IMG/VR virus record: IMGVR_UViG_3300024518_002320
Span: 1-40,482 of that record
Direction: 5' to 3' (one strand)
DNA: 40,482 nt
Source: a virus
The position numbers and the translations under genes are program-made. How positions within the stretch are numbered: position 1 is the stretch's first letter; each line of letters opens with the position of its first letter. A model generated the notes under the pieces. It was not told where the DNA came from. It searched no databases and saw nothing but the letters and a program-made list of their open reading frames with translations. This document shows positions 10,370 to 34,803 of this stretch, one piece after another.

Positions 10370-12280
10370 ATGACTGATACAAACGTTCAGTATGAGAATC
10401 TCGCTGGAGTCATTGTTTATAAACAAGATGGTAATCTTGCTCCTGAAGCCATCGCACCCGGTCCTCGGCTTCTGGTAATAGGAACTGCCGGCAAGGGTCT
10501 AGGAAGTAACCCCTACTACGTGTCTTCAACGGCAACAGCAAAATCCGAATTTGGCACTAGTGGTACCTTAATGCGTGGACTCTGGGAATCCAGAGCCATG
10601 GGCGCAGACGCTATAGCACTATATCGTATTGGTGCTAGGTCCGCTACAGTCACTGGTATTGGTGATGGTACTGGCGCTAACGGTTACACTGTTAGTACCT
10701 ATCAAGAAGATGCCGACGCTGGTGGAAACTATTCTCTGTACTATGACACTTCAGAAGACAGACTCGTTGTAAAGCGTAACTCAGATGACCTAATCGTTTT
10801 CGATAATGATGTAACAGATCCTATCGACAGGAATGAAGTTATTGTAAGTGGTTTTAGAGCAAATCAATCTAATCCTGATATTGGTTCTCCAAGTAGCTAT
10901 GTCGATCTAGAAGATATTGATCCTAGTACATATGCAGGTACCGCATTTACAGCAGGTACTGATGGTCTCGATCTATCCAGAATGGAAATGTATGAGGCTC
11001 TTTATGTTGCTTATGAAAACCTTAAAACAGTAGATTTTGATGTTGTTATACCAATGGATGTCTATCTTGACGATTACAATATTGTCCCACAGGGTCATTA
11101 TATTGGAGCCGTAACCCCCGAGGCATTAGTTGCCAATACATATCCTACTGCTGGGCGTTTTCGTCCAGGTACCGATGTGGATTCTCTGGGTCGTGTATTC
11201 GTAGAAGAATATGAAGGATCATACTACTTTTGGTGGTGGTTTAGTTCTGTTGGTGTCGCATTCTCAGCAGCTCATATTTTCCCAGCAAGTGGTCCTGGTT
11301 CTGCTTCTGCCACCCTCAAGATTGATGGCACTGCATTAGCTGCTAGTGACTTTCATGAAGTAAACTTCGCCTATCAATTAGGTCGGTTCCTATATGAATA
11401 TGGCACTAACATTGTTGACGCTTCTGGCGTTATTGGTGTTCTTCCTCCTTCGTCTAACAGTCTAACTGATAAGGCTAGATGGATAGGCAGTGAACCTACA
11501 TGGACTTTAGATCCTGCTAGTGGCTTAAATTACATTGCTAGTGCTGGCGACAACGGTACTGGTCTACTTGGTAATAAGTTCATGGGCGGACGATATGATC
11601 ACAGATCTGGTCTCGCTGGTGGCGGCTTAATCGCCACAGACACTAAGTTCATGGATGGCACTGAAATTGAAGACGATAATGAAATTGCAGTAGATCTAGG
11701 TAAATACCTATCAGTTACACCTGACTATCCACTGTTACGAAATCAATACAGTAGCACTGCATATCCTGCTTCTTTTGCTGCATCTTATGGTGGATTCTAT
11801 ATTAATAGATCACCAGCTAGTGCACCAACTAACAAGCAAGTTAGTAATGCTTCTATTCTGTTTAAGATTGGTCTACAAGGACTAGATGACATGGCTGGTT
11901 CGGGTTATGTTATGTTGCGCCAAAAGACTGGTGGATTATTTATTGCTGATTCTCCAACTGCTGCACTTGCTACTAGTGACTGGACACGTCTATCCACTGT
12001 ACGTATTGTTAAGGCTATTATTGATGGTGTTAGAGCTGCTGTTGACCCATTCCTTGGCGAAGGCATGTCTGATGCAACTCGAGCTAACATGAAACAGCAA
12101 ATTGAAAATGTACTGATGGCTGCTAAGAAAGCACTGTTCTTACAGGACTTCCGTCCATTTGAGGTTATTCAAACTCCACAAATGGAAGTACAAGGCCAAG
12201 CTACAATCAATCTAACCCTGGTCCCTGCTTACGAGCTGCGACAGGTAACGTTCTCGGTTTCGCTTTCGAGATCGGCATAA
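10370..12280 (+). CDS. Contractile tail sheath protein (636 aa)
   Basis: ATG 10370 has a strong SD (GAGGAGGG). The N-terminus (Y-E-N-L-A-G-V-I-V-Y-K-Q-D, then G-P-R-L-L-V-I-G-T-A-G-K-G) and the segment with G-L-W-E-S-R-A-M-G-A-D-A-I-A-L-Y-R-I-G match the start of phage and type VI-like sheath proteins. The C-terminal 150 residues match the conserved sheath core: V-R-I-V-K-A-I-I-D-G-V-R-A-A-V-D-P-F-L-G-E, then L-M-A-A-K-K-A-L-F-L-Q-D-F and a final beta strand with Q-V-T-F-S-V-S-L. The middle (about 230-400) is a variable surface domain. The sheath contracts around the tube to drive it through the cell envelope. It is followed by the tube genes, as is usual. Confidence 0.92.
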   Translation: MTDTNVQYENLAGVIVYKQDGNLAPEAIAPGPRLLVIGTAGKGLGSNPYYVSSTATAKSEFGTSGTLMRGLWESRAMGADAIALYRIGARSATVTGIGDGTGANGYTVSTYQEDADAGGNYSLYYDTSEDRLVVKRNSDDLIVFDNDVTDPIDRNEVIVSGFRANQSNPDIGSPSSYVDLEDIDPSTYAGTAFTAGTDGLDLSRMEMYEALYVAYENLKTVDFDVVIPMDVYLDDYNIVPQGHYIGAVTPEALVANTYPTAGRFRPGTDVDSLGRVFVEEYEGSYYFWWWFSSVGVAFSAAHIFPASGPGSASATLKIDGTALAASDFHEVNFAYQLGRFLYEYGTNIVDASGVIGVLPPSSNSLTDKARWIGSEPTWTLDPASGLNYIASAGDNGTGLLGNKFMGGRYDHRSGLAGGGLIATDTKFMDGTEIEDDNEIAVDLGKYLSVTPDYPLLRNQYSSTAYPASFAASYGGFYINRSPASAPTNKQVSNASILFKIGLQGLDDMAGSGYVMLRQKTGGLFIADSPTAALATSDWTRLSTVRIVKAIIDGVRAAVDPFLGEGMSDATRANMKQQIENVLMAAKKALFLQDFRPFEVIQTPQMEVQGQATINLTLVPAYELRQVTFSVSLSRSA

Positions 12281-12301: not shown

Positions 12302-12970
12302 ATGACACAACAGTCTGAATTCACCAGGGGATATAATAGCTTTTCAGGTATCGATATAAAAGCGACTTTTGGCACGAAAGTCATCGGTACTTTGCAAGGT
12401 ATTAGCTATTCTATCTCAAGAGAAAAAGCACCAATTTACACAATGGGTAGTGCTGACCCTCGAGCTTTTGCTCGTGGCAAACGTGGTATTGCTGGATCAT
12501 TAGTGTTCATTCAGTTTGACCAAGATCCTCTTATGTGGGAACTTGCTAATCCTGATGACGACACACGAAGACTATATTTCTTGTCTGATATCGATGATCT
12601 TAGACCAGAATACAGTGCTAACCAAGAGGTCGGCGTATCTGGAACTACAGTAGGAGCAGTAGATGCTGCTTCCACCAATGCTCCTGGCACAGCAATAGGC
12701 GGACAAGAAAGTGACATCACCACTGCTGGTAGCGATCAAGTTAAAGCTATTCCATGGTATGCGGATCAAATCCCTCCATTTGATATTGTATTGGCTGCTG
12801 CCAATGAATACGGAGCACTTGCCATTATGAAGGTACTCGGAGTAGAACTAATGAACTCTGGTTACGGTGTATCTGTGGATGATATCGTTTCGGAACACAG
12901 CTTTACATATATTGCACATGGTATGCTTCCTTGGACTGCCCAGGCTCCTATCGATTTGGGTAACGGGTAA
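12302..12970 (+). CDS. Tail tube protein, first of three tandem paralogues (222 aa)
   Basis: ATG 12302 has AGGGAGGT upstream and follows the sheath gene. The sequence has the tube pattern of SPO1-like and related myoviruses: a beta-rich N-terminus with S-G-I-D-I-K-A-T-F-G, the motif E-K-A-P-I-Y-T-M-G-S-A-D-P, then R-G-x-R-G-I-A-G-S-L-V-F-I-Q-F. Near the end come D-Q-I-P-P-F-D-I-V-L-A-A-A-N-E-Y-G and a C-terminal beta strand. Tube subunits stack as hexameric rings inside the sheath. This copy is the shortest, lies next to the sheath and has the most accessible SD, so it is the likely main tube subunit. The two downstream genes share these motifs. Confidence 0.85.
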   Translation: MTQQSEFTRGYNSFSGIDIKATFGTKVIGTLQGISYSISREKAPIYTMGSADPRAFARGKRGIAGSLVFIQFDQDPLMWELANPDDDTRRLYFLSDIDDLRPEYSANQEVGVSGTTVGAVDAASTNAPGTAIGGQESDITTAGSDQVKAIPWYADQIPPFDIVLAAANEYGALAIMKVLGVELMNSGYGVSVDDIVSEHSFTYIAHGMLPWTAQAPIDLGNG

Positions 12971-13019: not shown

Positions 13020-13925
13020 ATGTCTGAATTAGGTACTAAAGCCGGGCCAATTATTCCTTCAAAGAATGATCTTGTTGCCGGGCCATCTCCAACTACCAAA
13101 CGCAATGCACAAGTCTCTAATTATGCTAAGTTCTATGGAACATATAGCGGTGCCGATATTAAGGTTGTTGTGCATTATCCTCATGATCCTGTAATTGAGA
13201 AAGCATTACAGGTAGTTAAGTCAAGAACAGAACTTGAACTTGTAGAAGAAGAAGCATATTTTTGGGCCAATCGAGGAGACTTTAACACCGCAGCTCTTGC
13301 TCATCAGACTAAGCTAATCCAGGCTATTCGTGGTGAAATAGAAGACTTAGACTCCCAAATTGCTAAAGCGAAAAACGTCCCTACCTCTAAAACTCTAGGT
13401 GAGCTTCAAACTATTTCAGTTGGCTCATATAGAGATAAGAGCCCCGTTAGACCTTTGGGGTCAGTGTACCCTAAAGGTTATGTCCGTGGTCCTAGAACAA
13501 TTTCAGGCACTATGGTCTTTACTATATTTCACGAGCATGTACTACACGAACTCATGCAGCTAAACCTTAGACAGTACAGTACGGGCAGTAGTGACTATGA
13601 CAGACACTTATATACAACAATGTTAATAGACCAATTGCCACCTCTAGATATTAGTTTTATATTTGCTAATGAGTATGGTGCGATTTCACATATGGCACTA
13701 TATGGTGTAGAATTCTTTCAGGAGGGTATGACTTTTTCTATAGAAGACATTTACTCTGAAAGCACAATTCAATATGTGGCCAGAGACTTTGACCCAATGA
13801 GAATTGTTGACAGAAGAGAGATTGATGGTCAAGGTGTATCAAAGACGTGGACTAATACTGCATCTGATATGTTAAGAGAAAAACAGATTGTTGCCCACAG
13901 AATCAGAAGGGATCCTTTTATTTAA
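13020..13925 (+). CDS. Tube-like protein 2, with coiled-coil insertion (301 aa)
   Basis: ATG 13020 with SD AGAGAGG (possibly masked by a hairpin). It shares the tube signature of the preceding gene: S-P-V-R-P-L-G-S-V-Y-P-K-G-Y-V-R-G-P-R-T followed by I-S-G-T-M-V-F-T-I-F, and D-Q-L-P-P-L-D-I-S-F-I-F-A-N-E-Y-G about 50 residues later. It differs by a 70-residue helical, charged insertion near the N-terminus (about 60-130). Known contractile tails use tube-fold paralogues at the tube ends (T4 gp48 and gp54 at the baseplate). This copy is therefore a candidate tube-initiator or baseplate-to-tube adaptor. Its stop is immediately followed by the start of the third paralogue. Confidence 0.65.
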   Translation: MSELGTKAGPIIPSKNDLVAGPSPTTKRNAQVSNYAKFYGTYSGADIKVVVHYPHDPVIEKALQVVKSRTELELVEEEAYFWANRGDFNTAALAHQTKLIQAIRGEIEDLDSQIAKAKNVPTSKTLGELQTISVGSYRDKSPVRPLGSVYPKGYVRGPRTISGTMVFTIFHEHVLHELMQLNLRQYSTGSSDYDRHLYTTMLIDQLPPLDISFIFANEYGAISHMALYGVEFFQEGMTFSIEDIYSESTIQYVARDFDPMRIVDRREIDGQGVSKTWTNTASDMLREKQIVAHRIRRDPFI

Positions 13926-14780
13926 ATGACTATTAGGAACCATAGAGGAGACCTGATTACTTCAGAACTAGCTGGAGTTACACGTTATGAATATGATTGG
14001 TTTACTGGCTCTCAGATAACTGTTATGATCGGCGATGTTTTAGTAGACAATGTTGTTGCTATAAACTTTGATTCACAACAAAGCAAAACACCTGTTTACG
14101 GATACGCAAATAAGTATTATACTTTTGTTGCAGATGGTAAAGTATCCGTTTATGGAAGCTTAACTATTGCTTTCAAAGAAGCTGGGTATTTGTTGTGGCC
14201 GATGAAACGTTTTATAGATCAAAAGGCTGCGGGACAATGGACAACACCACGATATGGCAGAGATAGTGAAGGTCGGCTTACAAAAGGTTATGATGTCGGT
14301 AGTTCAAATGGTACCTTTACTACAGCCGCTGCCGAAGCAGAGAAGAAACGTGTAATGAGAAATAACGTAGAGCAAACAATGGAATACAGTGCCACTCAAC
14401 AATTAAACCGTGCCGGACACTTTTGGCAAGAGCTTGGTGCCTTACCAGATGATAAGTTTGAAGACTATGCTGAAACTTTTGAAGATGCTATTTGGTATGG
14501 AAGCGACACCGCTAATGCTCTAATGCGAGATAAATTATTTTCTGGCAATCTACCAGATCGATTAATTATAGATGATGAGACTATTCTTTCTCATCGCCGG
14601 GCCGATCAATACCCACCTATTGACATATGGATTGTTTATGGAGACATGAATAGACCATCTGCTAATCATACAGTAAAGAAATTACTGGATGTTTCTTTTA
14701 CGGGTCAATCCCAAGTAATCGAAGTATCTGGTGAGCCTACGTATGAAACTTATAGCTTTATGGCTAGAAACATAGTATAA
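13926..14780 (+). CDS. Tube-like protein 3 (284 aa)
   Basis: ATG 13926 follows directly on the stop of the preceding gene with no good SD at normal spacing (an AGAAGGG lies about 18 bases upstream), so it depends on translational coupling. It shares the tube pattern in more divergent form: S-K-T-P-V-Y-G-Y-A-N-K-Y-Y and G-K-V-S-V-Y-G-S-L-T-I-A-F, then D-Q-Y-P-P-I-D-I-W-I-V-Y-G-D near the end. A helical region (about 135-195) is inserted between the two blocks. It is probably a minor tube-fold protein that joins the tube to the hub or caps it. The low expected expression fits a few rings per virion. Confidence 0.6.
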   Translation: MTIRNHRGDLITSELAGVTRYEYDWFTGSQITVMIGDVLVDNVVAINFDSQQSKTPVYGYANKYYTFVADGKVSVYGSLTIAFKEAGYLLWPMKRFIDQKAAGQWTTPRYGRDSEGRLTKGYDVGSSNGTFTTAAAEAEKKRVMRNNVEQTMEYSATQQLNRAGHFWQELGALPDDKFEDYAETFEDAIWYGSDTANALMRDKLFSGNLPDRLIIDDETILSHRRADQYPPIDIWIVYGDMNRPSANHTVKKLLDVSFTGQSQVIEVSGEPTYETYSFMARNIV

Positions 14781-16225: not shown

Positions 16226-19200
16226 GTGGGATACTTGGTAGGACCATTCGTTACAGCAACAGGGCCTCAACCTAAACAACCTGGAGAATCACGCTCTGGA
16301 TTATTTAAGTTAGGTCTAGCTGGTTCTGCTTTTGCTGCTAGTGGTTTTATTGGTACTAAGCGAGGAAGGCTATGGGACCATTACCTTCCTGGTATCCGTG
16401 CAGCAGAGACTGCATTTCCAGCTGCTATCTTAAGAACATTTAGAGTCTCTGAATTCCTTTCACCTTTCGAATCCTGGAATACGGTAGGACTGTCATCTGC
16501 AAACATGCAGACTGGTGGTAAGTATGCCGAATTCTTAAAGAATACATTTGGAGCTGGTATACAAGACATAAGTATGGCTCGAACTGGAGCCATGTTTGGT
16601 GACGTTGTAGCAGATGGCCGTACCGTTGGTATGGGTCTGCAAATGAAAGCTGGTACCCAAAGGGGTGCCACCATAGCTGATTACTATGCTCGTATTAGCG
16701 GAACCTCTTTAACCACCAAAGAATCATTAAATGAAGCTCTCTTAAAAAGTGAATACTTTGCTGCTCGTCCAGGTATCCCATATGGTGAATGGGTCGAGGC
16801 TATGGAGCCTAGTGACCGTACTCGTAGGCTAATACTCGGTTCTAAGTTTAGAGATAAGATAAGAATAGCTGGTAGAGACTTTGAGCTAAGTCAGAGCATG
16901 CAACGCAAGGTTGCTAAAGTCGAGACTATTGGCAAATTAATGAGAGCTAAATCTGCCTCAACAGCAGGTAGACTAAATACTTTACTATCTAAACCACTAG
17001 AATTTCTTCCACAGAAGATACAGGACTTTCCTCTAGTCCAATCTATGGCCATCAAGCCAGGGTCTACCACCCAAATGATGGGTCGATTTACAAAGAAAGC
17101 CATTGTTGCTGGAGCGGCCTGGAAGGGCCTTGAGTACTATGATTACCTGAGGTCACAAGGGAGCCCGTGGGCTGCAGCTCTCGGAGTCTCTGGTGGCGCA
17201 CTGGCTGGCGCTACACTATTTAAAGGCATAGGACAAAGGTTCTCTCCGTTAGGCTTAGCTGCTGGTACTGCAGCTGGCTTGTATGCTTCTCTGGCTCCAA
17301 GATTTGACAAGGGATTGTTTCATGGTGCGGCTTCTGTATTTACAGATGCGAATGTTGCTCGAGCACATTTGTCTAGATCAGTTGGTTTAACAGAATCGCT
17401 GCAACGCCAAGAAGAGGTTACTCCTGGGTTAGTATCTACGAAGACAGCAATTGGATTTGCTGGTGTAGGGGCTATAAGTGCTGGACTACTGTCTTATGGA
17501 GGTTTACTAAATGCTGCTGCTCGAGAACGCTGGGCCAACAAAGAAGGCATAACAGCAGACATTATTGAAAAGCTTAGAGAATCTCGTGCAGATAAGATGG
17601 CTAGTAAGCTATGGGATTCAAGATTAGGTAAGGGAATTGGAAAGTTACCATTAGGTAAATATATTAGTAAGATCAAGAATCCTATGATGTTAGGTGCCAT
17701 AGGTGGTCTAGCTGCTTATAGTGCACTATCAACTAGCTTAAGCCTTCTGTCTGGTAATTTTGGTGCTGCACTTCCAGGTGCAAGCATATTAGGTGCGACT
17801 GAAACACCTGAGGAACTCCAAGCAATTTATTCTGGTGAGAAAGACGTTGCTGTTCGAAAGGGTCGTTGGTGGGAATTCGGGAGATGTTTAATAAAATCAA
17901 CTACTTGCAAGACTTTAGACTTAGGAGATCTCGAAGCAGAGGAAGTAGAAATTGGTGATATGCTTATAGGTAGAGATCATGAGCCAGTAGAAGTTATTGC
18001 TGTATATAAAAGAAAATATAATGGTGAATATTTAGAATTTTCATCTGCTTTTGACAGAGATATAAAAACAGAGGTTACTCCAAATCATATAATTCCTGTT
18101 TTAGATAAATCCACAAACACTATATATGAAACAGAAGCATCTAATATAAAATTAAATTCATATGTTGAAACTCCTATAGAAAAACTAGATAGCGATAGAT
18201 CATTTATTAATGTGCTGGATATTATTAATGAATCTGTTTTTGTTGATAATGACGACAGAGTATATGCCGCACAAAAGAACTGGTATTCTGGAAAATTACA
18301 AAAAAGTGGCACCCATAATATTCCCACAAGCATAGAATTAGATTATGATTTTGGCTTGCTTATGGGATATTTTTTAGCAGAAGGAAATATAAGTTTTAAT
18401 AAAAACAACCCAACTATGATTGAGACTGTCCATGCTAAACATGAAAAAGATTACGTAGATGATATTATCAAAATATCCGAAAAGATTTTTGGAGTTACAC
18501 CTACAGTTAGGTTTAAAACCACTGGGGAAAAGACCAAAGAAGGTTGCTGGATTGTAAGAATCTGCAGTGCAATTGTAGCAAAATTATTTAGATGGTCGTT
18601 TTATCCTCAACAGAATTATTATAAATATCGCAAACAAATTCCAATATGGTGCTTAAATGCTACAAAAGATTTTAAAAATGGATTAATTGAAGGATACTAT
18701 CGTGGAGATGGTCATTGGGATAGCACAAAGGTAATATCCTCATCAAAGAAAGTTATCTTAGAAAGACTACAGCTAATTGCATTTTCAATTGGAGAATTGG
18801 TTTCTATTGGACCGAAAGAAGAAAATGATTATCTTGGAAGATGGAGGGCAAGGTTTGTTAATAAAAATGCCACTAACCCTGCTTTAATACTAATCAACAA
18901 CAGATTGTTCTCTGCTGTGCGATCAGTGGAAACAAAAACATATGATGATATAGTTTATGATTTTGAAGTAGACCACCCAGATCATTTATTTGTTGCGGGC
19001 ACATTTCTTGTACATAACTCTAGTGCATATGAGGGCGGACGTATAGAATACTATAGGCCTCACTTTATGAAGCGTCTAGAATCTCGATCATATCAAAAAG
19101 GCATCTATGGCACTGAAGAAGAACGTTGGGATTATGACCCAATGCTTCATCCATTGAAAGCACTATTTGGTGATGACGATTGGAAGTACCATTATGAGCA

Positions 19201-21535
19201 GAAGCATCAATACGACAGACCAGCTCCATTAACTGGAACCTATGGAGAAGATATACCGTTTATAGGTCCACTGGTTGCTGCTACTGTTGGTAAGCTAATT
19301 AAACCTCGTAAACTTATACGTCCAGAAGAATGGATGCTTGATTCCGGAGAATATGTACACCGACCAGATCCTCGTGGAGAAACTGAACCATCATATCAGC
19401 TGGGTGGACTTGGACCTGGAGCACCAGTGTCGCCAGATGACACATCTCAACTGCTTAATGAACTAAACTATCGTAGGCGTGAGGCTGTTGGTTTAATAGG
19501 TTTCGCGGAAGGTGCTATTCAAAAATCCCTTACTGGTAGAGAAGAAGTGTTTCAGAATCTTCAAACTCTTGGTGTAATGGGAAAAGAAACTGGTTCAGAA
19601 TATTGGCTGTGGAGTCATCTAAATGTTGGCGGTGCCATGGGTACATCTGAACCCATACGTAGGTTTATTCCACATACCAGAAGCTATCTAGAAGAATACA
19701 ATCCACTTAAAAATGATATGCCTTCTTGGATGCCACAGAATTACTTCTTGGACTTTTCCTATGGTAATCCTTTCGATAAGATTAAAGAAGCAGAGATTAG
19801 ACTTCCTGGTCCTGGATATGAAGCACTGCATCCAGAATTACAAGGCATGAGACCAGAAGAATATCCATTAGCACACAGGCTTAAAATACTTGGCGATGTC
19901 GCTATGTGGAGCAGTGAGTACAAAAATACTCTGTCTCAATCAAAACGTGACGTAGATAGACTAAGTGACCGAGAACGTCATATGGTCATGACCACAGAAG
20001 AGCAAGTTAGAAGTAAAAAAACTCGTAGGAAAATTACTGAATATAGATTCAGACCAGAGTTGTTACAAGAAGAACAAGTTACGGTAACCGATGTATTAGA
20101 TCCGCGTACTATCAGGACTAAGGAATATGGGGATGCTCTTGTTGAGCTTCAAGGTGTTGGTACTATCACTAATATGGCAGATGCTATGTCTTATGCCAAT
20201 CAGCGTTTACAGGGCAATAAGATCAATATCCAAACTCCTGTTATGGATTCACGCAAATATGACTTAACCGAACGTGGCAGTCGTATTAAGGCCGTAGCTA
20301 TGATGGGTGATGTTGATTATGGACAAGAGTTGGCTAATCAACGTCTTGCTTCTGCCAAGGGACTTCGTGGTGAATTCGAACAACTTAGGTTTACTCCACA
20401 GGAACAATTAGCTGGTATGCTAAGTGAGTCTGCCCTACACAACATAGAGACTCCAATCGAGATGCTGACTCCTATGTCTCCAGCATCCAAGCTTATTAGA
20501 CAACGTTCGGCCATAGAAGAATACATTGCCACTGAAGCTGTTGGCACAGGAAGTGCTTTCTGGGATAAGCCTATAGAAAACTTTATAAAGCCTGCAGCTG
20601 ACATGACTCTTAATTCTCTTGGCTTTGATACTGTGCCTCAAAATATAAAGCAACGTCGTGATATCAATGAGTATTTCGATATGTTGTCTTGGACCAAATC
20701 TAAGAAGCTAGAAGATGTGGCTATAAGAGAACAAGACTCAGCAGGGATTCGGCAGCAACAGGAAATACAGAAGAAGACTATGTTTGGTGTCGATGCCTAT
20801 GGATCTCCCACTGATGTTATGAGAGCATTGCCTCGTCGTGAAAGAGACTTCTTTGCTGCTTTCTCACAAGCCGCTACTCCTGAAGAGAGAGCAGAAATAT
20901 CCAAATACATTCCAGAGAATGAGCAACGGGTATATACAGCACAATGGCTAAGACAAGAAGAAGCATCTTCTCGAGCGAAGAAGGAAGCTAATCTTGGTAC
21001 GTTATATGACGATCAGATATTAGCTACTACTCAAATGATGAGGAAATCCGAAGGTTTCGGTATGACTCCTGAACTTGAAGAGATGTGGATGGAAGAGACT
21101 AACGGAGAAATACCTTTCGATGACTGGATTCGTCAGAAGAAAGCAGATGAGTATTTTGCTAGTCATTCCTTGCCAGGTGCAGATTGGTTAGGATGGCATC
21201 CGTCTGTCGATATGGATGATGTTAAGCTTAAATATGTAGAGATGAATGGTCTAGATCATCATGAATTTGATCTTTGGGGCACTCGTAAAGGAGCACTTGC
21301 TCGCAAACCATACATTAATAAAGACCTCATTAATCAAATGGGCCAACAAGCAGACTATGATAACATTGCTAAGTCACGGGCCAATGCCAAAGCAATTGCT
21401 AAATTTCATGGTTCCGAAGATACTAATGTTCAGTTATCCAATATAGGCGCTGATCTTCCACCACGATATGACATTGAAATTGTTGACAAAAGAGAAGATA
21501 CAGTTAGACGTGCTTATCAAGAACTAGGAGCTTAG
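16226..21535 (+). CDS. Tape-measure-position tail protein interrupted by an intein (1769 aa; 1391 aa after splicing)
   Basis: Two starts are possible: GTG 16226, directly after the previous stop and without an SD, or TTG 16235, 5 bases after AGGTGG. I find TTG at least as likely. Position after the chaperone genes points to the tape measure, which sets tail length and lies in the tube lumen. The N-terminal third has Gly/Ala-rich hydrophobic stretches (about 290-360, 407-433, 486-525) as seen in tape measures that enter the host membrane. An intein occupies residues 554-931, splitting a conserved-looking element, G-R-W-W-E-F-G-R then S-S-A-Y-E-G-G-R-I-E-Y-Y-R-P-H. Residues about 1283-1378 resemble a staphylococcal-nuclease-like OB fold without its active-site residues. 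The C-terminal 400 residues are helical and charged. It could instead be an internal virion protein working with the next gene product. Confidence 0.7.
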   Translation: MGYLVGPFVTATGPQPKQPGESRSGLFKLGLAGSAFAASGFIGTKRGRLWDHYLPGIRAAETAFPAAILRTFRVSEFLSPFESWNTVGLSSANMQTGGKYAEFLKNTFGAGIQDISMARTGAMFGDVVADGRTVGMGLQMKAGTQRGATIADYYARISGTSLTTKESLNEALLKSEYFAARPGIPYGEWVEAMEPSDRTRRLILGSKFRDKIRIAGRDFELSQSMQRKVAKVETIGKLMRAKSASTAGRLNTLLSKPLEFLPQKIQDFPLVQSMAIKPGSTTQMMGRFTKKAIVAGAAWKGLEYYDYLRSQGSPWAAALGVSGGALAGATLFKGIGQRFSPLGLAAGTAAGLYASLAPRFDKGLFHGAASVFTDANVARAHLSRSVGLTESLQRQEEVTPGLVSTKTAIGFAGVGAISAGLLSYGGLLNAAARERWANKEGITADIIEKLRESRADKMASKLWDSRLGKGIGKLPLGKYISKIKNPMMLGAIGGLAAYSALSTSLSLLSGNFGAALPGASILGATETPEELQAIYSGEKDVAVRKGRWWEFGRCLIKSTTCKTLDLGDLEAEEVEIGDMLIGRDHEPVEVIAVYKRKYNGEYLEFSSAFDRDIKTEVTPNHIIPVLDKSTNTIYETEASNIKLNSYVETPIEKLDSDRSFINVLDIINESVFVDNDDRVYAAQKNWYSGKLQKSGTHNIPTSIELDYDFGLLMGYFLAEGNISFNKNNPTMIETVHAKHEKDYVDDIIKISEKIFGVTPTVRFKTTGEKTKEGCWIVRICSAIVAKLFRWSFYPQQNYYKYRKQIPIWCLNATKDFKNGLIEGYYRGDGHWDSTKVISSSKKVILERLQLIAFSIGELVSIGPKEENDYLGRWRARFVNKNATNPALILINNRLFSAVRSVETKTYDDIVYDFEVDHPDHLFVAGTFLVHNSSAYEGGRIEYYRPHFMKRLESRSYQKGIYGTEEERWDYDPMLHPLKALFGDDDWKYHYEQKHQYDRPAPLTGTYGEDIPFIGPLVAATVGKLIKPRKLIRPEEWMLDSGEYVHRPDPRGETEPSYQLGGLGPGAPVSPDDTSQLLNELNYRRREAVGLIGFAEGAIQKSLTGREEVFQNLQTLGVMGKETGSEYWLWSHLNVGGAMGTSEPIRRFIPHTRSYLEEYNPLKNDMPSWMPQNYFLDFSYGNPFDKIKEAEIRLPGPGYEALHPELQGMRPEEYPLAHRLKILGDVAMWSSEYKNTLSQSKRDVDRLSDRERHMVMTTEEQVRSKKTRRKITEYRFRPELLQEEQVTVTDVLDPRTIRTKEYGDALVELQGVGTITNMADAMSYANQRLQGNKINIQTPVMDSRKYDLTERGSRIKAVAMMGDVDYGQELANQRLASAKGLRGEFEQLRFTPQEQLAGMLSESALHNIETPIEMLTPMSPASKLIRQRSAIEEYIATEAVGTGSAFWDKPIENFIKPAADMTLNSLGFDTVPQNIKQRRDINEYFDMLSWTKSKKLEDVAIREQDSAGIRQQQEIQKKTMFGVDAYGSPTDVMRALPRRERDFFAAFSQAATPEERAEISKYIPENEQRVYTAQWLRQEEASSRAKKEANLGTLYDDQILATTQMMRKSEGFGMTPELEEMWMEETNGEIPFDDWIRQKKADEYFASHSLPGADWLGWHPSVDMDDVKLKYVEMNGLDHHEFDLWGTRKGALARKPYINKDLINQMGQQADYDNIAKSRANAKAIAKFHGSEDTNVQLSNIGADLPPRYDIEIVDKREDTVRRAYQELGA
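17885..19018 (+). mobile_element. Intein with LAGLIDADG homing endonuclease (378 aa)
   Basis: Splicing blocks are complete. Cys554 is the first residue, after ...F-G-R. Block B T-P-N-H is at 618-621. The C-terminal end reads V-Y-D-F-E-V-D-H-P-D-H-L-F-V-A-G-T, then L-V-H-N (His930, Asn931), followed by Ser932 as the first C-extein residue. Between them lie two LAGLIDADG motifs: L-L-M-G-Y-F-L-A-E-G (711-720) and G-L-I-E-G-Y-Y-R-G-D-G (819-829), whose acidic residues E719 and D828 are the metal-binding positions. The host protein should be joined Arg553 to Ser932. The DNA is much more AT-rich than its surroundings: G+C is 13 of 60 at 18121-18180 and 15 of 60 at 18361-18420, against 32 of 60 at 19381-19440 and 21 of 60 at 20041-20100. 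This supports lateral arrival. All residues needed for splicing and cleavage are present. Confidence 0.93.
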
Positions 21536-21537
21536 AT

Positions 21538-24500
21538 ATGGCTAAAAAATTTCCAGATAACGTAGAGTCAGGTTCGGACTTTTGGAGATATGGGGCAACA
21601 GCATCTGTAACTGGTGGTATTGGTTATGGTTTACATCGTGCTCATCCAGCAGTAAGGGCAGCCATGACTTCCGGTGTAAGAGATGTAGCTGGAGAAGTAT
21701 CTGCTGAACTTAGAAGTCTTGGTAGGTTTAATGTTGCGCCAGCTAATAGGAGTGCAGCAACTGGTAGTGTTGGAGAAGATATTCTTAGAAATCTAGCAGC
21801 TTCTAGTAGCATGAAAACTGTCAAAACTGATATTGCAGCAGCCACCTATGAGGCTGCTCTAGCTGGCGGCAGATCAACACATACAGAGGCTTATGGAGCT
21901 TACCAACAAGTACTTAGCCAAACCTCAGTTCATAATGCATATGAGCATGCCAAGCAATCCTTAAACAAACTACAAGGAGATGTTGGTCTACTAACTAGTC
22001 GCATTGGTGACTTAGGACAAGGTGGCTTCTATGGTAGGACACTTGGACCACTTGGTGGAGACCTTCATGGAACGATGTTGTCTTCTGGAGGCTTTATTGG
22101 TGGACGTGAATCTGTTAGCCTTACTGGAGGGTTGCGCCAGAAAGCGTTAGGGATACAATCTCGTTTAGAATCAGCGGCTGCAAAAGCTGGCGGAAAAATA
22201 AAGTGGCAAGGTTACTACAATGTGGTCGATGTACTAGAAGGCCAAACTGTTACTACTCCAATGTTAAAAGGCAGTATAGGTGGAGAGTCATTGAATATAC
22301 CTTTAAGGAATACTGGGTTATCTTATAGCGGCGAGAATCTAACAGCTAGATATGTCACTCGAGGTTCATTTGCAGCAAAAGGTGACAAGATAAAAGACTT
22401 TGGCACAACATATGTTGATGAATTAGAACAAGTTATTAGTTCTCAGAAGACTACAACTGGTATTAAAAATGCTGTTATCGATACTAACAATAAAATCATT
22501 AATACTATGCGTACTAGAGATGCAGCTCATAGATCTATGGCAATATGGAAAATGCCAGAACCCATGCTTACATCTGGTGGAAGAGTGAAGGCCAGAATGA
22601 ATAGTATGGAGGCGGTATATTCAGGCGGTAGAATGACAGAAGGTATGCGTAGCGAAGTTATTGAAGAAGCACTTTCTGGCAAAGGCAGAAACTTATTTCC
22701 TATCGGCAGCCCAGAAACTGTTGCCAAGGGAACTTTTATTAAAGGTAATATAGCAGAAGAACTGTTCGGTCCTATAGGGCGACTTATGGGTGTGGAAGAT
22801 CGCCCAACACAATTTATACGTGAAGAGTTTGGGGTAACTGCTGCTAGCAAACAACGAGCTGGTAAATTTCAAGGAGCTTTTGGACAGCACTTTGGTCGTC
22901 TTGACAGAAAAATACAGGGTGCCGGTTACAAACAATTACTATATGGAGGGGCAGACGTTACTTCCGCACAGGCATACTCGGCTCCTCAATTAACTACATT
23001 TTATGCGAATCCAAACGCATTGGAATCTGGCCCTCTTTCAGAAATTATGTCCGCTGAAGAGTTTGTGGTTTCTAATAAAGCATCTCCAATGATGGAATAC
23101 GAACGTGTGGTTCAAAAGAAAGTATCTCTTAATAAAGACTTTAGGACCAATCAAGTTTTGTTGCGTTCTTTAGAGCAAAAGCCAGCAGGTGAACTAGTTA
23201 AAGGAGCGCCATTTGGTGCTGGTAGTTTTATAGGAATAGAACAGGGTACTGGTAAAGAAGTCTGGGGAACAGGTGCTGGTGGAGCAAAGGCAGAAGTAAT
23301 CGGTGCCCAGCTAACCGGTAAGAACAAAGCCACTGTGTTCATGAGAGAAACACACAGGTTGTCACAAGATGAATGGTGGAAGGTTTTTAGTGAGGACACT
23401 AAGTTTATGGGTAGGGGGGCAAACAAACAAAGGATGGCAGAAGTTGCAAGAGCTGCTGGTGTTAATCCGATGGATATTGGACAGGACTTAGAAGCTGTTG
23501 TTAGCGGTAAATTAGTCCAGCGTAACAAGGGTGCACTGCTTACTCAGCAAATAGAAGCTATATCTATGCTCTCATCTAAGAAGATTGAACAAGGATCCTT
23601 AACTCTTAGAAAACGTCTTCTAGCAAAAGAATTCATGGAGGATCCTTCCAGATATCTTAAGCTTGACAGTTTAATGGGTGAAGGTATGGCAGATGCTGAA
23701 TTCCAGATTCAAAAAAATATGGTAGCTTTAACTAAAAAGTTTGGTTTTAAACATAAAGAGATGGCTATGACTTTTGGTTTATGGGACTCTCGTACACTGA
23801 AAGCATTAGTAGATGAGGGAAGTCTAGATGTTCGACAAGCTGCACAGATTCGCTACTCTCCTGGTGTAGTTGGACTATCCAAAATGAGACTTGGGGATTT
23901 AGCTTCTGAGGGTGGAGCTGGAAACTTAGCCAAATTTGATCAGTCGGGTTTCAGACTACTGGCAATGAAAGACGAAGAAGGAAAAAGATTTGCTGCTGAG
24001 ATGTCTACTCGCTTACTAGGTAAAGATGAACTGTCTCCAGCTAACCGTATGGAGGCCAGCATATTAAATCGAACTGGGATGAAAGAGCGTATTAGTCAAA
24101 TGATGGGCATGGCTCCTACTGACGAGAGAACATTACGACAAATGGCAGAAGGCGATTTACTTAAAGCTCAAGGCAGGTATGTTAATTTAGGTCAAAAGAT
24201 AGAAGCTTTCGGTGGAGCATCACAAATATATGTGCCCGGCATAGAAGAAGCAGAGGGACTAATAGGTCCTAAGATATACAAGGGTGAAAAGTTTCCTTCT
24301 GATATTGCCAAGGGTTTAGAAAACATGCGTCGTGTTATGCAGACTGGTGGAGCCACAGAAGAGATAGAAGCTTCAGCTTTAGCGCTTAGACGGTCTATTG
24401 TACAACAAACTGAACAACAGGCATCTGCTACTGGCCGAGTAGCTGGCTCTAGATATCTTACTGGTATCCGCCAAACAGCTGCAGAGACTGCTAAGTCAAA

Positions 24501-26019
24501 TGCTTCAGTTGGTATCTCTAAGGGATCAGCTACCAGTATGTTTGATGATCTTATTTCTCGAGCGGCAACACATGACCAAAAACTATATCTATCTGACCAG
24601 AAACGTAAACTAATAGATGAGAGCCAACAATTGATAGGTGGCATGTGGAGACATCCTACTACTGGTCCTGAAAGCTTTCAATTCATTAACTATCATGTAG
24701 ATCATAACTTGTCTGATAAGATGGTTTCTGTGCCACGCCAAATGGGTAAGTTTGCTCTTGAAGGTATGGATGCAAAAGATGTAGACATATCTTCTATGGT
24801 GGGTATGAAAGGTGACTTCGATAATGATAAGTTTAGTATCGCAGCTATATCAGATCGCGATACAGTTAATAGATTAAAAAACAAGATGAGTCATGGAGCA
24901 CAGGGAGATTACACTAAGTATTTATTCAATCACTATGCTATGAAAGATATGATTGATGGACGAAAGGGCACAGTAAAGAACTTAGTAGACCTTAGTCGCC
25001 AAGAAGCTTTAGAGGTGGGTGCTCGTAACTTAACAGCTGCAAAGATAGCTACTCCTGAAGTTAATACGGCATTACAGAAATTGAAATTAGGCTTACAATA
25101 TTCGGCTCCTAAGGAGTACAGGCCTATGGCTGAGTTGTTTTGGCACTTAGAAGAGGCTGCTATCAGTGGTAAGCATGGGGCACAACAGAGTTCCTTGTAC
25201 CAAAACATTGCTCATGCTGTAAGAAGTAAAGATACCGCTACTATGGAAGGTGTCATCAAGCAACTTATGGGCGAACAAAGCCTTGAGGTTTCCGGAAAGA
25301 TAACTAGCCCAACAGGTGATTTGGTATCACAAACTATGAAATATAGCCCTAAGCGTTGGGCTGAGCAAGCTATCCAATCTGCGTCAGTTGTGGGAGAAGA
25401 CGTAGAAGCGGCATATAGATCCGCTCGAGCAGTAAAAGGTTCAGTATCTGGGAATTTCTATGACTTAGTTGAATCATCTTTTAAACGCAGAACTGGATCT
25501 CTAGATGTAGCACAGTCAGTTATGCACTCTAAAACCTATGGAATGCCTGGATTTACTGAAACTACTAATAGGGTTTTGCGTCAAGCTTCCGCTAAAAGTC
25601 GATCAATATTAGGTGGTTTGCAGAAAGCCAAGGGTCCAGCTCTTATCGGTGCCGCTATTGCTGGTGGCTTAATGCTAGCTGCTCCATCTATCTCTGGTGC
25701 TATCAATGCTCCAATGGAGGGGGTCGCTGGTGGAAGGAATCTCAGCCACAATGATTTAGGTCCTCCAGCTGGTGCTGGGATGAGTGTTCCTCCACCTAGA
25801 ATCATGTCTTCTCCTAAAGCCTATGATATGAGTGGAATTAAGATGTCATCTCGTGCTAAAATCAGAATGACAATGCCTGATGCTAATAGTGCTAGTAATA
25901 ATTTTATGAAGCATGCCGGTACTTTAGCCAGTGGCGGCAATGTAAGGATACACACCACAGACGACAGAAGTGCTCTGAGTCCACATAGATTAGCAAATAA
26001 GATTCACGAGAGGCTTTAA
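21538..26019 (+). CDS. Candidate single-chain double-psi-beta-barrel RNA polymerase of the virion (1493 aa)
   Basis: ATG 21538 with AGGAG 7 bases upstream. Residues 620-655 read D-T-K622-F-M-G-R-G-A-N-K630, then G641-V-N-P-M-D-I-G-Q-D-L-E652. This parallels the beta-subunit block G-D-K-M-A-G-R-H-G-N-K-G, whose two catalytic lysines are also 8 apart, followed by G-V-P-S-R-M-N-I-G-Q-I-L-E. The 60 residues before it are beta-rich and glycine-rich, as in that barrel. Further on, V-D-I-S-S-M-V then G-D1093-F-D1095-N-D1097-K-F-S-I resembles the beta' block N-A-D-F-D-G-D-Q-M-A, which holds the catalytic magnesium, preceded by V-P-R1067-Q. Order (Lys barrel, then Asp barrel) matches single-chain enzymes such as SPbeta YonO and crAss-like virion polymerases. 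The C-terminus has a hydrophobic segment (about 1365-1390). Lying between tape measure and hub genes, it may be packaged and ejected. Alternatively it is a second internal tail protein with chance motifs. Confidence 0.6.
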   Translation: MAKKFPDNVESGSDFWRYGATASVTGGIGYGLHRAHPAVRAAMTSGVRDVAGEVSAELRSLGRFNVAPANRSAATGSVGEDILRNLAASSSMKTVKTDIAAATYEAALAGGRSTHTEAYGAYQQVLSQTSVHNAYEHAKQSLNKLQGDVGLLTSRIGDLGQGGFYGRTLGPLGGDLHGTMLSSGGFIGGRESVSLTGGLRQKALGIQSRLESAAAKAGGKIKWQGYYNVVDVLEGQTVTTPMLKGSIGGESLNIPLRNTGLSYSGENLTARYVTRGSFAAKGDKIKDFGTTYVDELEQVISSQKTTTGIKNAVIDTNNKIINTMRTRDAAHRSMAIWKMPEPMLTSGGRVKARMNSMEAVYSGGRMTEGMRSEVIEEALSGKGRNLFPIGSPETVAKGTFIKGNIAEELFGPIGRLMGVEDRPTQFIREEFGVTAASKQRAGKFQGAFGQHFGRLDRKIQGAGYKQLLYGGADVTSAQAYSAPQLTTFYANPNALESGPLSEIMSAEEFVVSNKASPMMEYERVVQKKVSLNKDFRTNQVLLRSLEQKPAGELVKGAPFGAGSFIGIEQGTGKEVWGTGAGGAKAEVIGAQLTGKNKATVFMRETHRLSQDEWWKVFSEDTKFMGRGANKQRMAEVARAAGVNPMDIGQDLEAVVSGKLVQRNKGALLTQQIEAISMLSSKKIEQGSLTLRKRLLAKEFMEDPSRYLKLDSLMGEGMADAEFQIQKNMVALTKKFGFKHKEMAMTFGLWDSRTLKALVDEGSLDVRQAAQIRYSPGVVGLSKMRLGDLASEGGAGNLAKFDQSGFRLLAMKDEEGKRFAAEMSTRLLGKDELSPANRMEASILNRTGMKERISQMMGMAPTDERTLRQMAEGDLLKAQGRYVNLGQKIEAFGGASQIYVPGIEEAEGLIGPKIYKGEKFPSDIAKGLENMRRVMQTGGATEEIEASALALRRSIVQQTEQQASATGRVAGSRYLTGIRQTAAETAKSNASVGISKGSATSMFDDLISRAATHDQKLYLSDQKRKLIDESQQLIGGMWRHPTTGPESFQFINYHVDHNLSDKMVSVPRQMGKFALEGMDAKDVDISSMVGMKGDFDNDKFSIAAISDRDTVNRLKNKMSHGAQGDYTKYLFNHYAMKDMIDGRKGTVKNLVDLSRQEALEVGARNLTAAKIATPEVNTALQKLKLGLQYSAPKEYRPMAELFWHLEEAAISGKHGAQQSSLYQNIAHAVRSKDTATMEGVIKQLMGEQSLEVSGKITSPTGDLVSQTMKYSPKRWAEQAIQSASVVGEDVEAAYRSARAVKGSVSGNFYDLVESSFKRRTGSLDVAQSVMHSKTYGMPGFTETTNRVLRQASAKSRSILGGLQKAKGPALIGAAIAGGLMLAAPSISGAINAPMEGVAGGRNLSHNDLGPPAGAGMSVPPPRIMSSPKAYDMSGIKMSSRAKIRMTMPDANSASNNFMKHAGTLASGGNVRIHTTDDRSALSPHRLANKIHERL

Positions 26020-33552: not shown

Positions 33553-34803
33553 ATGCCATTTTTTCCACGAGAAGCAAAAGATATAGTTTCGGAATCACTA
33601 CAAAGGATGAGCCGTCAAACTAATATCACTCAGTTGACACCTGGAGGCAAGGCACGTTTCTTCTTGTCTACTGTGTCTGAAGAGCAAGAGAGACAACAAA
33701 CATTGTTTGATAGCAATCTGCTCCAGCCATATATTAAATATTCCGATGGTAAGTTGTTGGATTTCTTTGGTGACATGTTAAAGCTACCACGCATAGAAGC
33801 TACTCATGCAGAAGTCACTAGTAATAATTTTATGTTCTATGTGCAATCTGGGGTGTTTGGCGACATTAACGGCGGGTCAGCATTTACATTACCAGCTAGC
33901 ACTGCAATAACAACTGTCCCCTTTCAGGGAAATGTTTTTACTCCAGGTCTAGAAAGCCAACCTGCAATTGGATACAAAACTCTTCAGTCTGTTGTTTGTC
34001 AACCTAATAGTTCATTTATATACATTCCTATTCGTGCAGACATTGAAGGAGAGGCTTCTTCTTTGCCGCGCAATACACTATCCCTACATACGTTTACTGG
34101 ATATTCTTTATCAAGCAGAAGCTTATTAAAGTGTACTAATAGGTTTGCTATTGATAGTGGAGTAGACAGGGAACGTGACGACTCATATAGATTCAGGCTG
34201 TCTAATTTATTTGCGGCTAGGAATCAAGCTATCTATGCAAGTGTCCGTTTGGCTGCACTAAGTGTTCCTGGTGTGGCAGATGTAACATTAATAAATGCAG
34301 AACAGGGTCCTGGTACGTTTGGTTTATACATCCGAAGCATCACCCCATCAGTCAGTCCATCTTTAGTTAATGCAGTTTCTACAGCTGTTGGTGAAGTGGT
34401 CGGTTATGGTATAAGACCATTTGTATCTGCAGCTAAAACTTTGGGTCTAGAATTAGTTACTGCAGTTAATTGGTCTTCACGAAGTACCACTGAAGAAATA
34501 TCTGCTGGCTATGCAGCTATGCGTAATATTGTAGAAGATACTATTAACGGACTTGGAAATGGCGAACCATTAGATCTAGACGAACTAGTGGTCGCTATGT
34601 TAGGTGCAGCACCAGGAGCTTTGAGTATTGGCAGGAATACTCCTAATAAGTTTGAGGAAGCGTACCTGTATCGCACATCACAAAGTAGTAGTGACACAAC
34701 TCGCAATCGCGTATTGTCAGGTGTACTTAGTCCCCTGTATAACGAAAGACTTCTTCTGGAAACTTCGACACGCTATAAGGGCATACAGTTTATTACGTTT
34801 TAA
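33553..34803 (+). CDS. Baseplate J-like wedge protein (416 aa)
   Basis: ATG 33553 with AGAGGTG upstream. The protein follows the baseplate J/T4 gp6 pattern: N-terminal helices (S-E-S-L-Q-R-M-S-R-Q-T-N-I-T), a D-G-K-L-L-D-F-F-G region, and a beta domain with F-T-L-P-A-S-T-A-I-T (the usual I-P-A-G-T-x-v element) and G-E-A-S-S-L-P-R-N-T-L. The hallmark G-V-D-R-E-R-D-D-S-Y-R-F-R-L is present, followed by V-P-G-V-A-D-V-T-L-I and a helical C-terminal third. It builds the baseplate wedges together with the gp25-like protein encoded just upstream. Length is normal for the family. Confidence 0.85.
   Translation: MPFFPREAKDIVSESLQRMSRQTNITQLTPGGKARFFLSTVSEEQERQQTLFDSNLLQPYIKYSDGKLLDFFGDMLKLPRIEATHAEVTSNNFMFYVQSGVFGDINGGSAFTLPASTAITTVPFQGNVFTPGLESQPAIGYKTLQSVVCQPNSSFIYIPIRADIEGEASSLPRNTLSLHTFTGYSLSSRSLLKCTNRFAIDSGVDRERDDSYRFRLSNLFAARNQAIYASVRLAALSVPGVADVTLINAEQGPGTFGLYIRSITPSVSPSLVNAVSTAVGEVVGYGIRPFVSAAKTLGLELVTAVNWSSRSTTEEISAGYAAMRNIVEDTINGLGNGEPLDLDELVVAMLGAAPGALSIGRNTPNKFEEAYLYRTSQSSSDTTRNRVLSGVLSPLYNERLLLETSTRYKGIQFITF

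Follow-up and report, generated by a model that had tools for sequence, protein, structure and literature searches.

Two-barrel RNA polymerases carried by phage tails were known before, as far as we could find, from the P23-45 siphophages and from crAss-like podoviruses such as phi14:2, in which the gene adjoins tail genes. In P23-45, the pre-early genes are transcribed by an active virion polymerase housed within the tape-measure protein, and there are relatives without the fused enzyme; a separate polymerase, gp64, is not packaged (PMC10770324). In the tail module of phage 0305phi8-36, orf143 and orf144 encode tail chaperones, orf147 the hub and orf146 the tape measure, the last assigned chiefly on the basis of tail length; the alignment of orf146 with its BtI1 counterpart is confined to the last 60 residues (PMC2147016). 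A 2021 survey of jumbo phages gave for 0305phi8-36 only a YonO-like single-chain enzyme (PMC7824862), which we read as the product of the separate orf99 gene, and a keyword search of a 2026 review of jumbo phages showed virion polymerases of the phiKZ type only (PMC13282480). In the open-licence literature we came across no description of a polymerase carried in the tail for the 0305phi8-36-type lineage, although an earlier mention elsewhere is possible.

We analysed a stretch of viral DNA of 40,482 nucleotides (IMG/VR record IMGVR_UViG_3300024518_002320; hereafter the window), in which the tail protein in the tape-measure slot is likely to be a single-chain two-barrel DNA-dependent RNA polymerase that would be ejected with the DNA for early transcription. 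The gene is a single, intact open frame, as checked by ORF and translation, and the strings on which a preliminary description of this DNA was built all lie in that one frame: DTKFMGRGANK at residues 620-630, GVNPMDIGQDLE at 641-652 and GDFDND at 1092-1097. The protein itself had no convincing Pfam or PHROG match. The features discussed here are listed in Table 1.

Table 1. Features of the polymerase-like gene and its surroundings, in window coordinates.
Feature	Coordinates	Strand	Basis or remark
Tail sheath (contractile tail)	10370..12280	+	phrog_16991, E = 4.1e-58
Upstream neighbour, 1391 aa without intein	16226..21535	+	homologue of ME3_35 and of a 0305phi8-36 virion structural protein; 56 loci; tblastn to ME3, MTATph1 and KLEB27-3
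Intein inside the neighbour, about 378 aa	17885..19018	+	sequence, and comparison with intein-free relatives
RNA polymerase-like tail protein, tape-measure slot	21538..26019	+	1493 aa; ORF, translation, homologues in the same gene order, iterated profile family
Two-barrel polymerase core (modelled), residues 483-1345	22984..25572	+	AlphaFold2 model m0c916afb2304, pLDDT 78.8, pTM 0.70
Beta-rich region, candidate beta-type barrel (DPBB-B), residues 500-650	23035..23487	+	strand-rich in the model
Lysine pair K615-x-F-x(4)-K622	23380..23403	+	K615 in 22/22, K622 in 21/22; pattern-equivalent to beta GDKxxGRHGNKG
Motif of the preliminary description, D620 to K630 plus GVxPxxIGQxLE	23395..23493	+	K630 not conserved
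R1038-H-P1040	24649..24657	+	R and P in 22/22; counterpart of beta' NRxPT, a short way before the catalytic loop
D1093-F-D1095-N-D1097, metal-binding DxDxD of the beta'-type barrel (DPBB-A)	24814..24828	+	three D in 22/22; PDB-wide profile search
I1209-S-G-K-H1213, after the catalytic loop	25162..25176	+	I and H in 20/21
Hydrophobic segment, residues 1367-1385	25636..25692	+	hydropathy 1.71 over 19 residues
C-terminal motif (h-x-h-x-x-D-D/N-R/x...), residues 1469-1493	25942..26016	+	C-termini inspected across the lineage
Baseplate hub-type protein, 2082 aa	26023..32271	+	phrog_20474 / phrog_8809; position of ME3_37 'baseplate hub protein'
Baseplate wedge (gpJ-like)	33553..34803	+	phrog_6, E = 1e-19

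The sheath and baseplate genes nearby bear out the earlier placement of the gene in the tail module of a contractile phage. The annotation of phage ME3 ties the upstream neighbour, the hub and the sheath to phage 0305phi8-36, and the order of the genes in the chaperone positions, the neighbour, the polymerase-like gene and the hub is the order of orf143-147 in that phage. The gene had also been described as lying between the tape measure and the hub. It does adjoin the hub gene, but it occupies the annotated tape-measure slot (orf146 of 0305phi8-36) itself and is not clearly between the two; the true tape measure may be either the slot protein or the 1,391-aa neighbour. In every close relative examined, the polymerase-like gene lay between structural genes, and gp034 of Bacillus phage KLEB27-3, a homologue, is annotated as 'structural protein'.

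The intein interrupts the neighbour at WWEFGR/C...HN/S; intein-free relatives are ~1,390-1,400 aa long, and inteins occupy the same position at two other loci (L005 and L012). Three consecutive tail proteins encoded further upstream (12302-12970, 13020-13925 and 13926-14780) are probably paralogues of the tail tube. Two of the three carry the PHROG label 'major head protein', and KLEB27-3 has three annotated tail-tube genes at the corresponding place.

Scans of viral contigs yielded nine further distinct close members of the family, with 40-65% identity and an identical gene order. A profile of the neighbour, which is better conserved than the polymerase-like gene, found 56 loci, and tblastn with the neighbour reached three isolates: Acinetobacter phage ME3, Moorella phage MTATph1 and KLEB27-3. 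At many of the 56 loci, the next gene encoded a DxDxD loop (GDYDGDN, GDFDGDI, NADYDGDF and the like). Iterated profile searches, run with reversed-sequence decoys, linked about 30 very divergent proteins to the window family, among them KLEB27-3 gp034 and ME3_36. No relatives were found by the patterns used in scans of genome contigs from 84,980 bacterial and archaeal species.

The conservation alignment comprised 22 members with a median pairwise identity of 19%, and 21 of 863 window residues were kept in all or all but one of the sequences. These near-invariant positions include K615, K622, R1038, P1040, D1093, D1095 and D1097; all seven are invariant except K622, which is kept in 21 members. 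The three aspartates of the DFDND loop, singled out in the preliminary description, are conserved far beyond chance at this level of divergence.

The lysine part of that description had to be revised. K622 and K630 had been paired as catalytic lysines, and GVxPxxIGQxLE had been taken for the motif that follows them in the beta subunit. In the three closest relatives, position 630 is occupied by D, D and T, and the lysine recurs in 2 of the 22 family members; GVxPxxIGQxLE drifts in close relatives and is unconserved outside the clade, so that the motif first proposed is largely a coincidence. Of the residues whose loss in close homologues had been named as a sign against a polymerase, K622 is retained in 21 of the 22 family members and the aspartates never change. 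A clade-specific motif, SGKLVxRN, with K658 as the lysine site, was also considered and rejected because K658 is unconserved outside the window's clade. The correct pair is most likely K615/K622, because K-x-F-x(3-4)-K, then R-x-P, then DxDxD parallel GDKxxGRHGNKG of beta and NRxPT...NADFDGD of beta' in both order and chemistry; this assignment was made by pattern rather than by profile match. I1209-S-G-K-H1213 possibly contributes trigger-loop residues.

A profile of the R-x-P...DxDxD site, made from 15 members, was searched against 177,635 distinct PDB sequences at E <= 10. All 46 matches were RNA polymerase chains of the beta'/Rpb1 type, and the best was chain PHIKZ055 of the phiKZ polymerase (E = 7.5e-5), aligned through R-x-P and DFDGD. 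Polymerases again came out on top with a nine-member sub-family profile, including the beta' chain of phage AR9. When a related profile was aligned by hhalign with the whole of E. coli RpoC, it fell in register on residues 420-471, the catalytic site, with the R1038/P1040 region included (E = 8.4e-4; reversed controls, 0.13 or worse). The sole Pfam match of KLEB27-3 gp034 was RNA_pol_Rpb1_2, sub-threshold (E = 0.015) and over exactly the R-x-P...DxDxD site. Profiles made from close relatives only (A1 and A7) gave no useful PDB match, so the polymerase signal needs the divergent family. The profile search proposed in the preliminary description thus led to RNA polymerases on the beta' side, but the beta-type region gave no hhalign signal against RpoB, gp96, gp66 or YonO. 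The PF05183 profile had no match in the window protein at E <= 10. A weak HMMER match of the family profile to P23-45 gp96, at residues 1185-1325, did not overlap the polymerase domain of gp96 and was set aside as spurious.

A first AlphaFold2 model of residues 215-1395, built from 10 close sequences, was unusable (pLDDT 51); the model of the core became usable because divergent homologues were added to the alignment. The best 50 PDB matches listed by Foldseek all came from complexes of RNA polymerase, and most were beta' or Rpb1 chains. Their whole-model TM-scores were low (0.12-0.15) because most matches cover one barrel. VIA-align gave Z up to 10.5 for Rpb1, where 159 core residues superposed closely (3.2-3.4 Å), and Z 9.6 for the single-chain QDE-1 of T. 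terrestris, over 314 residues at 4.4 Å and model positions 1-809, nearly the whole model (QDE-1 copies RNA and DNA). The candidate beta-type barrel lies within this QDE-1 match and has no RpoB profile match; its identification draws on the lysine pattern and on the QDE-1 match. Among viral structures, the matches included annotated viral RNA polymerases and the ME3 homologue (A0A172Q021), the two halves of which add up to the 1603-aa length of ME3_36. P23-45 gp96 and phi14:2 gp66 were not among the best 50 PDB fold matches listed, which is uninformative either way. The predicted structure, suggested earlier as a check, resembles the beta'/Rpb1 and QDE-1 folds, and with the PDB-wide profile search and the invariant catalytic residues it supports the view that the protein is a single-chain polymerase of the two-barrel superfamily.

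The slot protein appears to be modular, because its C-terminal motif is present in a protein without the core. Inspection of C-termini traced the motif in the last 25 residues of the window protein along the lineage, including members without DxDxD. In a 218,948-bp record presumed to be 0305phi8-36 (L081), the slot protein has a similar C-terminal motif but lacks DxDxD, and the profile of the polymerase core did not match it. The slot proteins that have the motif and lack DxDxD are L081:14251-21924, L086:14059-20724 and L094:13879-21996, and from their sequences the core was probably lost in each. A C-terminal structural element would then be found throughout, and the polymerase core in most, not all, members.

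An RNase_T-type exonuclease domain (PF00929, E = 5e-5) is present in the slot protein of MTATph1 (L100:17438-21367), the gene for which is closely followed by a transposase gene. KLEB27-3 gp034 (L101:18286-25590) has an N-terminal stretch resembling this domain. Tail proteins of the lineage may carry a nuclease too.

We propose that the beta-type region supplies K615 and K622 and that the beta'-type barrel would supply D1093, D1095 and D1097 for two metal ions. The protein is probably anchored in the tail by its C-terminal hydrophobic segment, a possible membrane-spanning helix, together with the conserved motif at its C-terminus. During infection, by analogy with P23-45, the slot protein would be ejected first from the tail with the DNA, and the polymerase would transcribe the incoming DNA, so that early transcription could begin independently of the host enzyme. 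Virion and non-virion enzymes would divide the work, which fits the relatives with a separate PF05183-type polymerase. Such enzymes, candidates for the non-virion role, were found elsewhere in three related records (L120, L121, L122 and L124, in G013, G014 and G015). In the window's 198-kb and 174-kb relatives none turned up, and we noticed no other polymerase subunit gene in the 198-kb relative. For a second ME3 polymerase (BFVD A0A172Q0S6), no ORF with DxDxD could be tied to it; one ORF of about the right size has no Pfam family.

The 198-kb relative encodes a Ro60/TROVE-domain protein (L034:9555-11195, minus strand). Its genes for ThyX and class II ribonucleotide reductase contain intein or LAGLIDADG domains, and one HHH/OB-fold gene contains an intein domain.

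The gene might instead lie within the tail operon by chance. Its product would then be an active two-barrel RNA polymerase, synthesized late and left out of the virion. We regard this as unlikely. Phages can carry a separate non-packaged polymerase, as gp64 of P23-45 illustrates (PMC10770324), and the three related records with PF05183-type enzymes agree with such an arrangement; yet these enzymes could already fill the non-virion role in some relatives. The position between structural genes in all close relatives examined, the annotation of the KLEB27-3 homologue and the C-terminal motif common to the tape-measure protein in the 0305phi8-36 position all argue for a tail protein.

Less probable still is a polymerase-derived structural protein of the tail that is no longer catalytic, with the fold acting as tail filler or as part of the DNA channel. 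The members without DxDxD that keep only the C-terminal motif do imply that the core is dispensable for tail assembly, but in the core-bearing members invariant columns are very few and include the catalytic residues, which points to selection on catalysis. Another two-barrel chemistry, RNA- or DNA-templated DNA synthesis (QDE-1-like or PolD-like) during DNA entry, is very improbable, since the profile search returned DNA-dependent RNA polymerases only and the 198-kb relative already has an ORF with a DnaE-type motif and a primase-helicase, even though QDE-1 is the single-chain enzyme that the model matches from one end to the other and PolD shares the two barrels (PMC10770324).

The best reading, by analogy, is a contractile-phage counterpart of the tail-tape-fused polymerase of P23-45. 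This extends the idea of a tail-carried polymerase to the large contractile phages of a giant-phage lineage, enlarges the superfamily of the cellular enzymes by a very divergent branch, and suggests a possible function for a protein filed only as structural, hypothetical or tape measure. As a tentative generalization, there might be a widespread branch of tail-borne RNA polymerases that has so far escaped recognition: in most 0305phi8-36-type large contractile phages the slot protein might be a polymerase in the tail tube that enters ahead of the genome and transcribes the emerging DNA, the core being lost where another enzyme serves. With the gene named in two isolates (KLEB27-3 gp034 and ME3_36), early host-independent transcription is directly testable. 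The reading also raises a physical question, the passage of a ~160-kDa polymerase-bearing protein through the tail tube.

Among known systems, orf146 of 0305phi8-36 occupies the same slot between an orf145-type neighbour and the hub and has a similar C-terminal motif, as judged through L081, the protein of which differs in lacking the core. QDE-1, PF05183 and YonO enzymes resemble the window protein, as predicted here, in being single chains with the beta-type barrel first and the beta'-type second; the window protein differs in having no PF05183 match, and YonO is not encoded in a tail module. The catalytic-site profile finds exactly the chains of the cellular beta'/beta, phiKZ and AR9 polymerases, which are multisubunit enzymes, whereas the window protein is predicted to have both parts in one chain. 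The 2,180-aa gp66 of phi14:2 (PDB 6VR4), annotated as a virion protein by mass spectrometry, is likewise a single-chain two-barrel polymerase with R-x-P and DFDID, and its gene stands beside large structural genes; its profile match with the window family is not significant (E = 0.085). In P23-45, a long-tailed siphophage, the polymerase is N-terminal within a protein of 5,002 aa, whereas the window phage has a sheath and a 1,493-aa protein; the window family aligns with gp96 in register at DFDGD only (E = 0.013, not significant) and has no match at the active site of gp64. Gp96 and the window protein are nevertheless alike as single-chain two-barrel polymerases, the latter as predicted here, in a tail module, with a DFDGD-type loop and R-x-P upstream. 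Both also have related phages in which the tail protein appears without the polymerase, and a separate non-virion polymerase, here a candidate one in some relatives.
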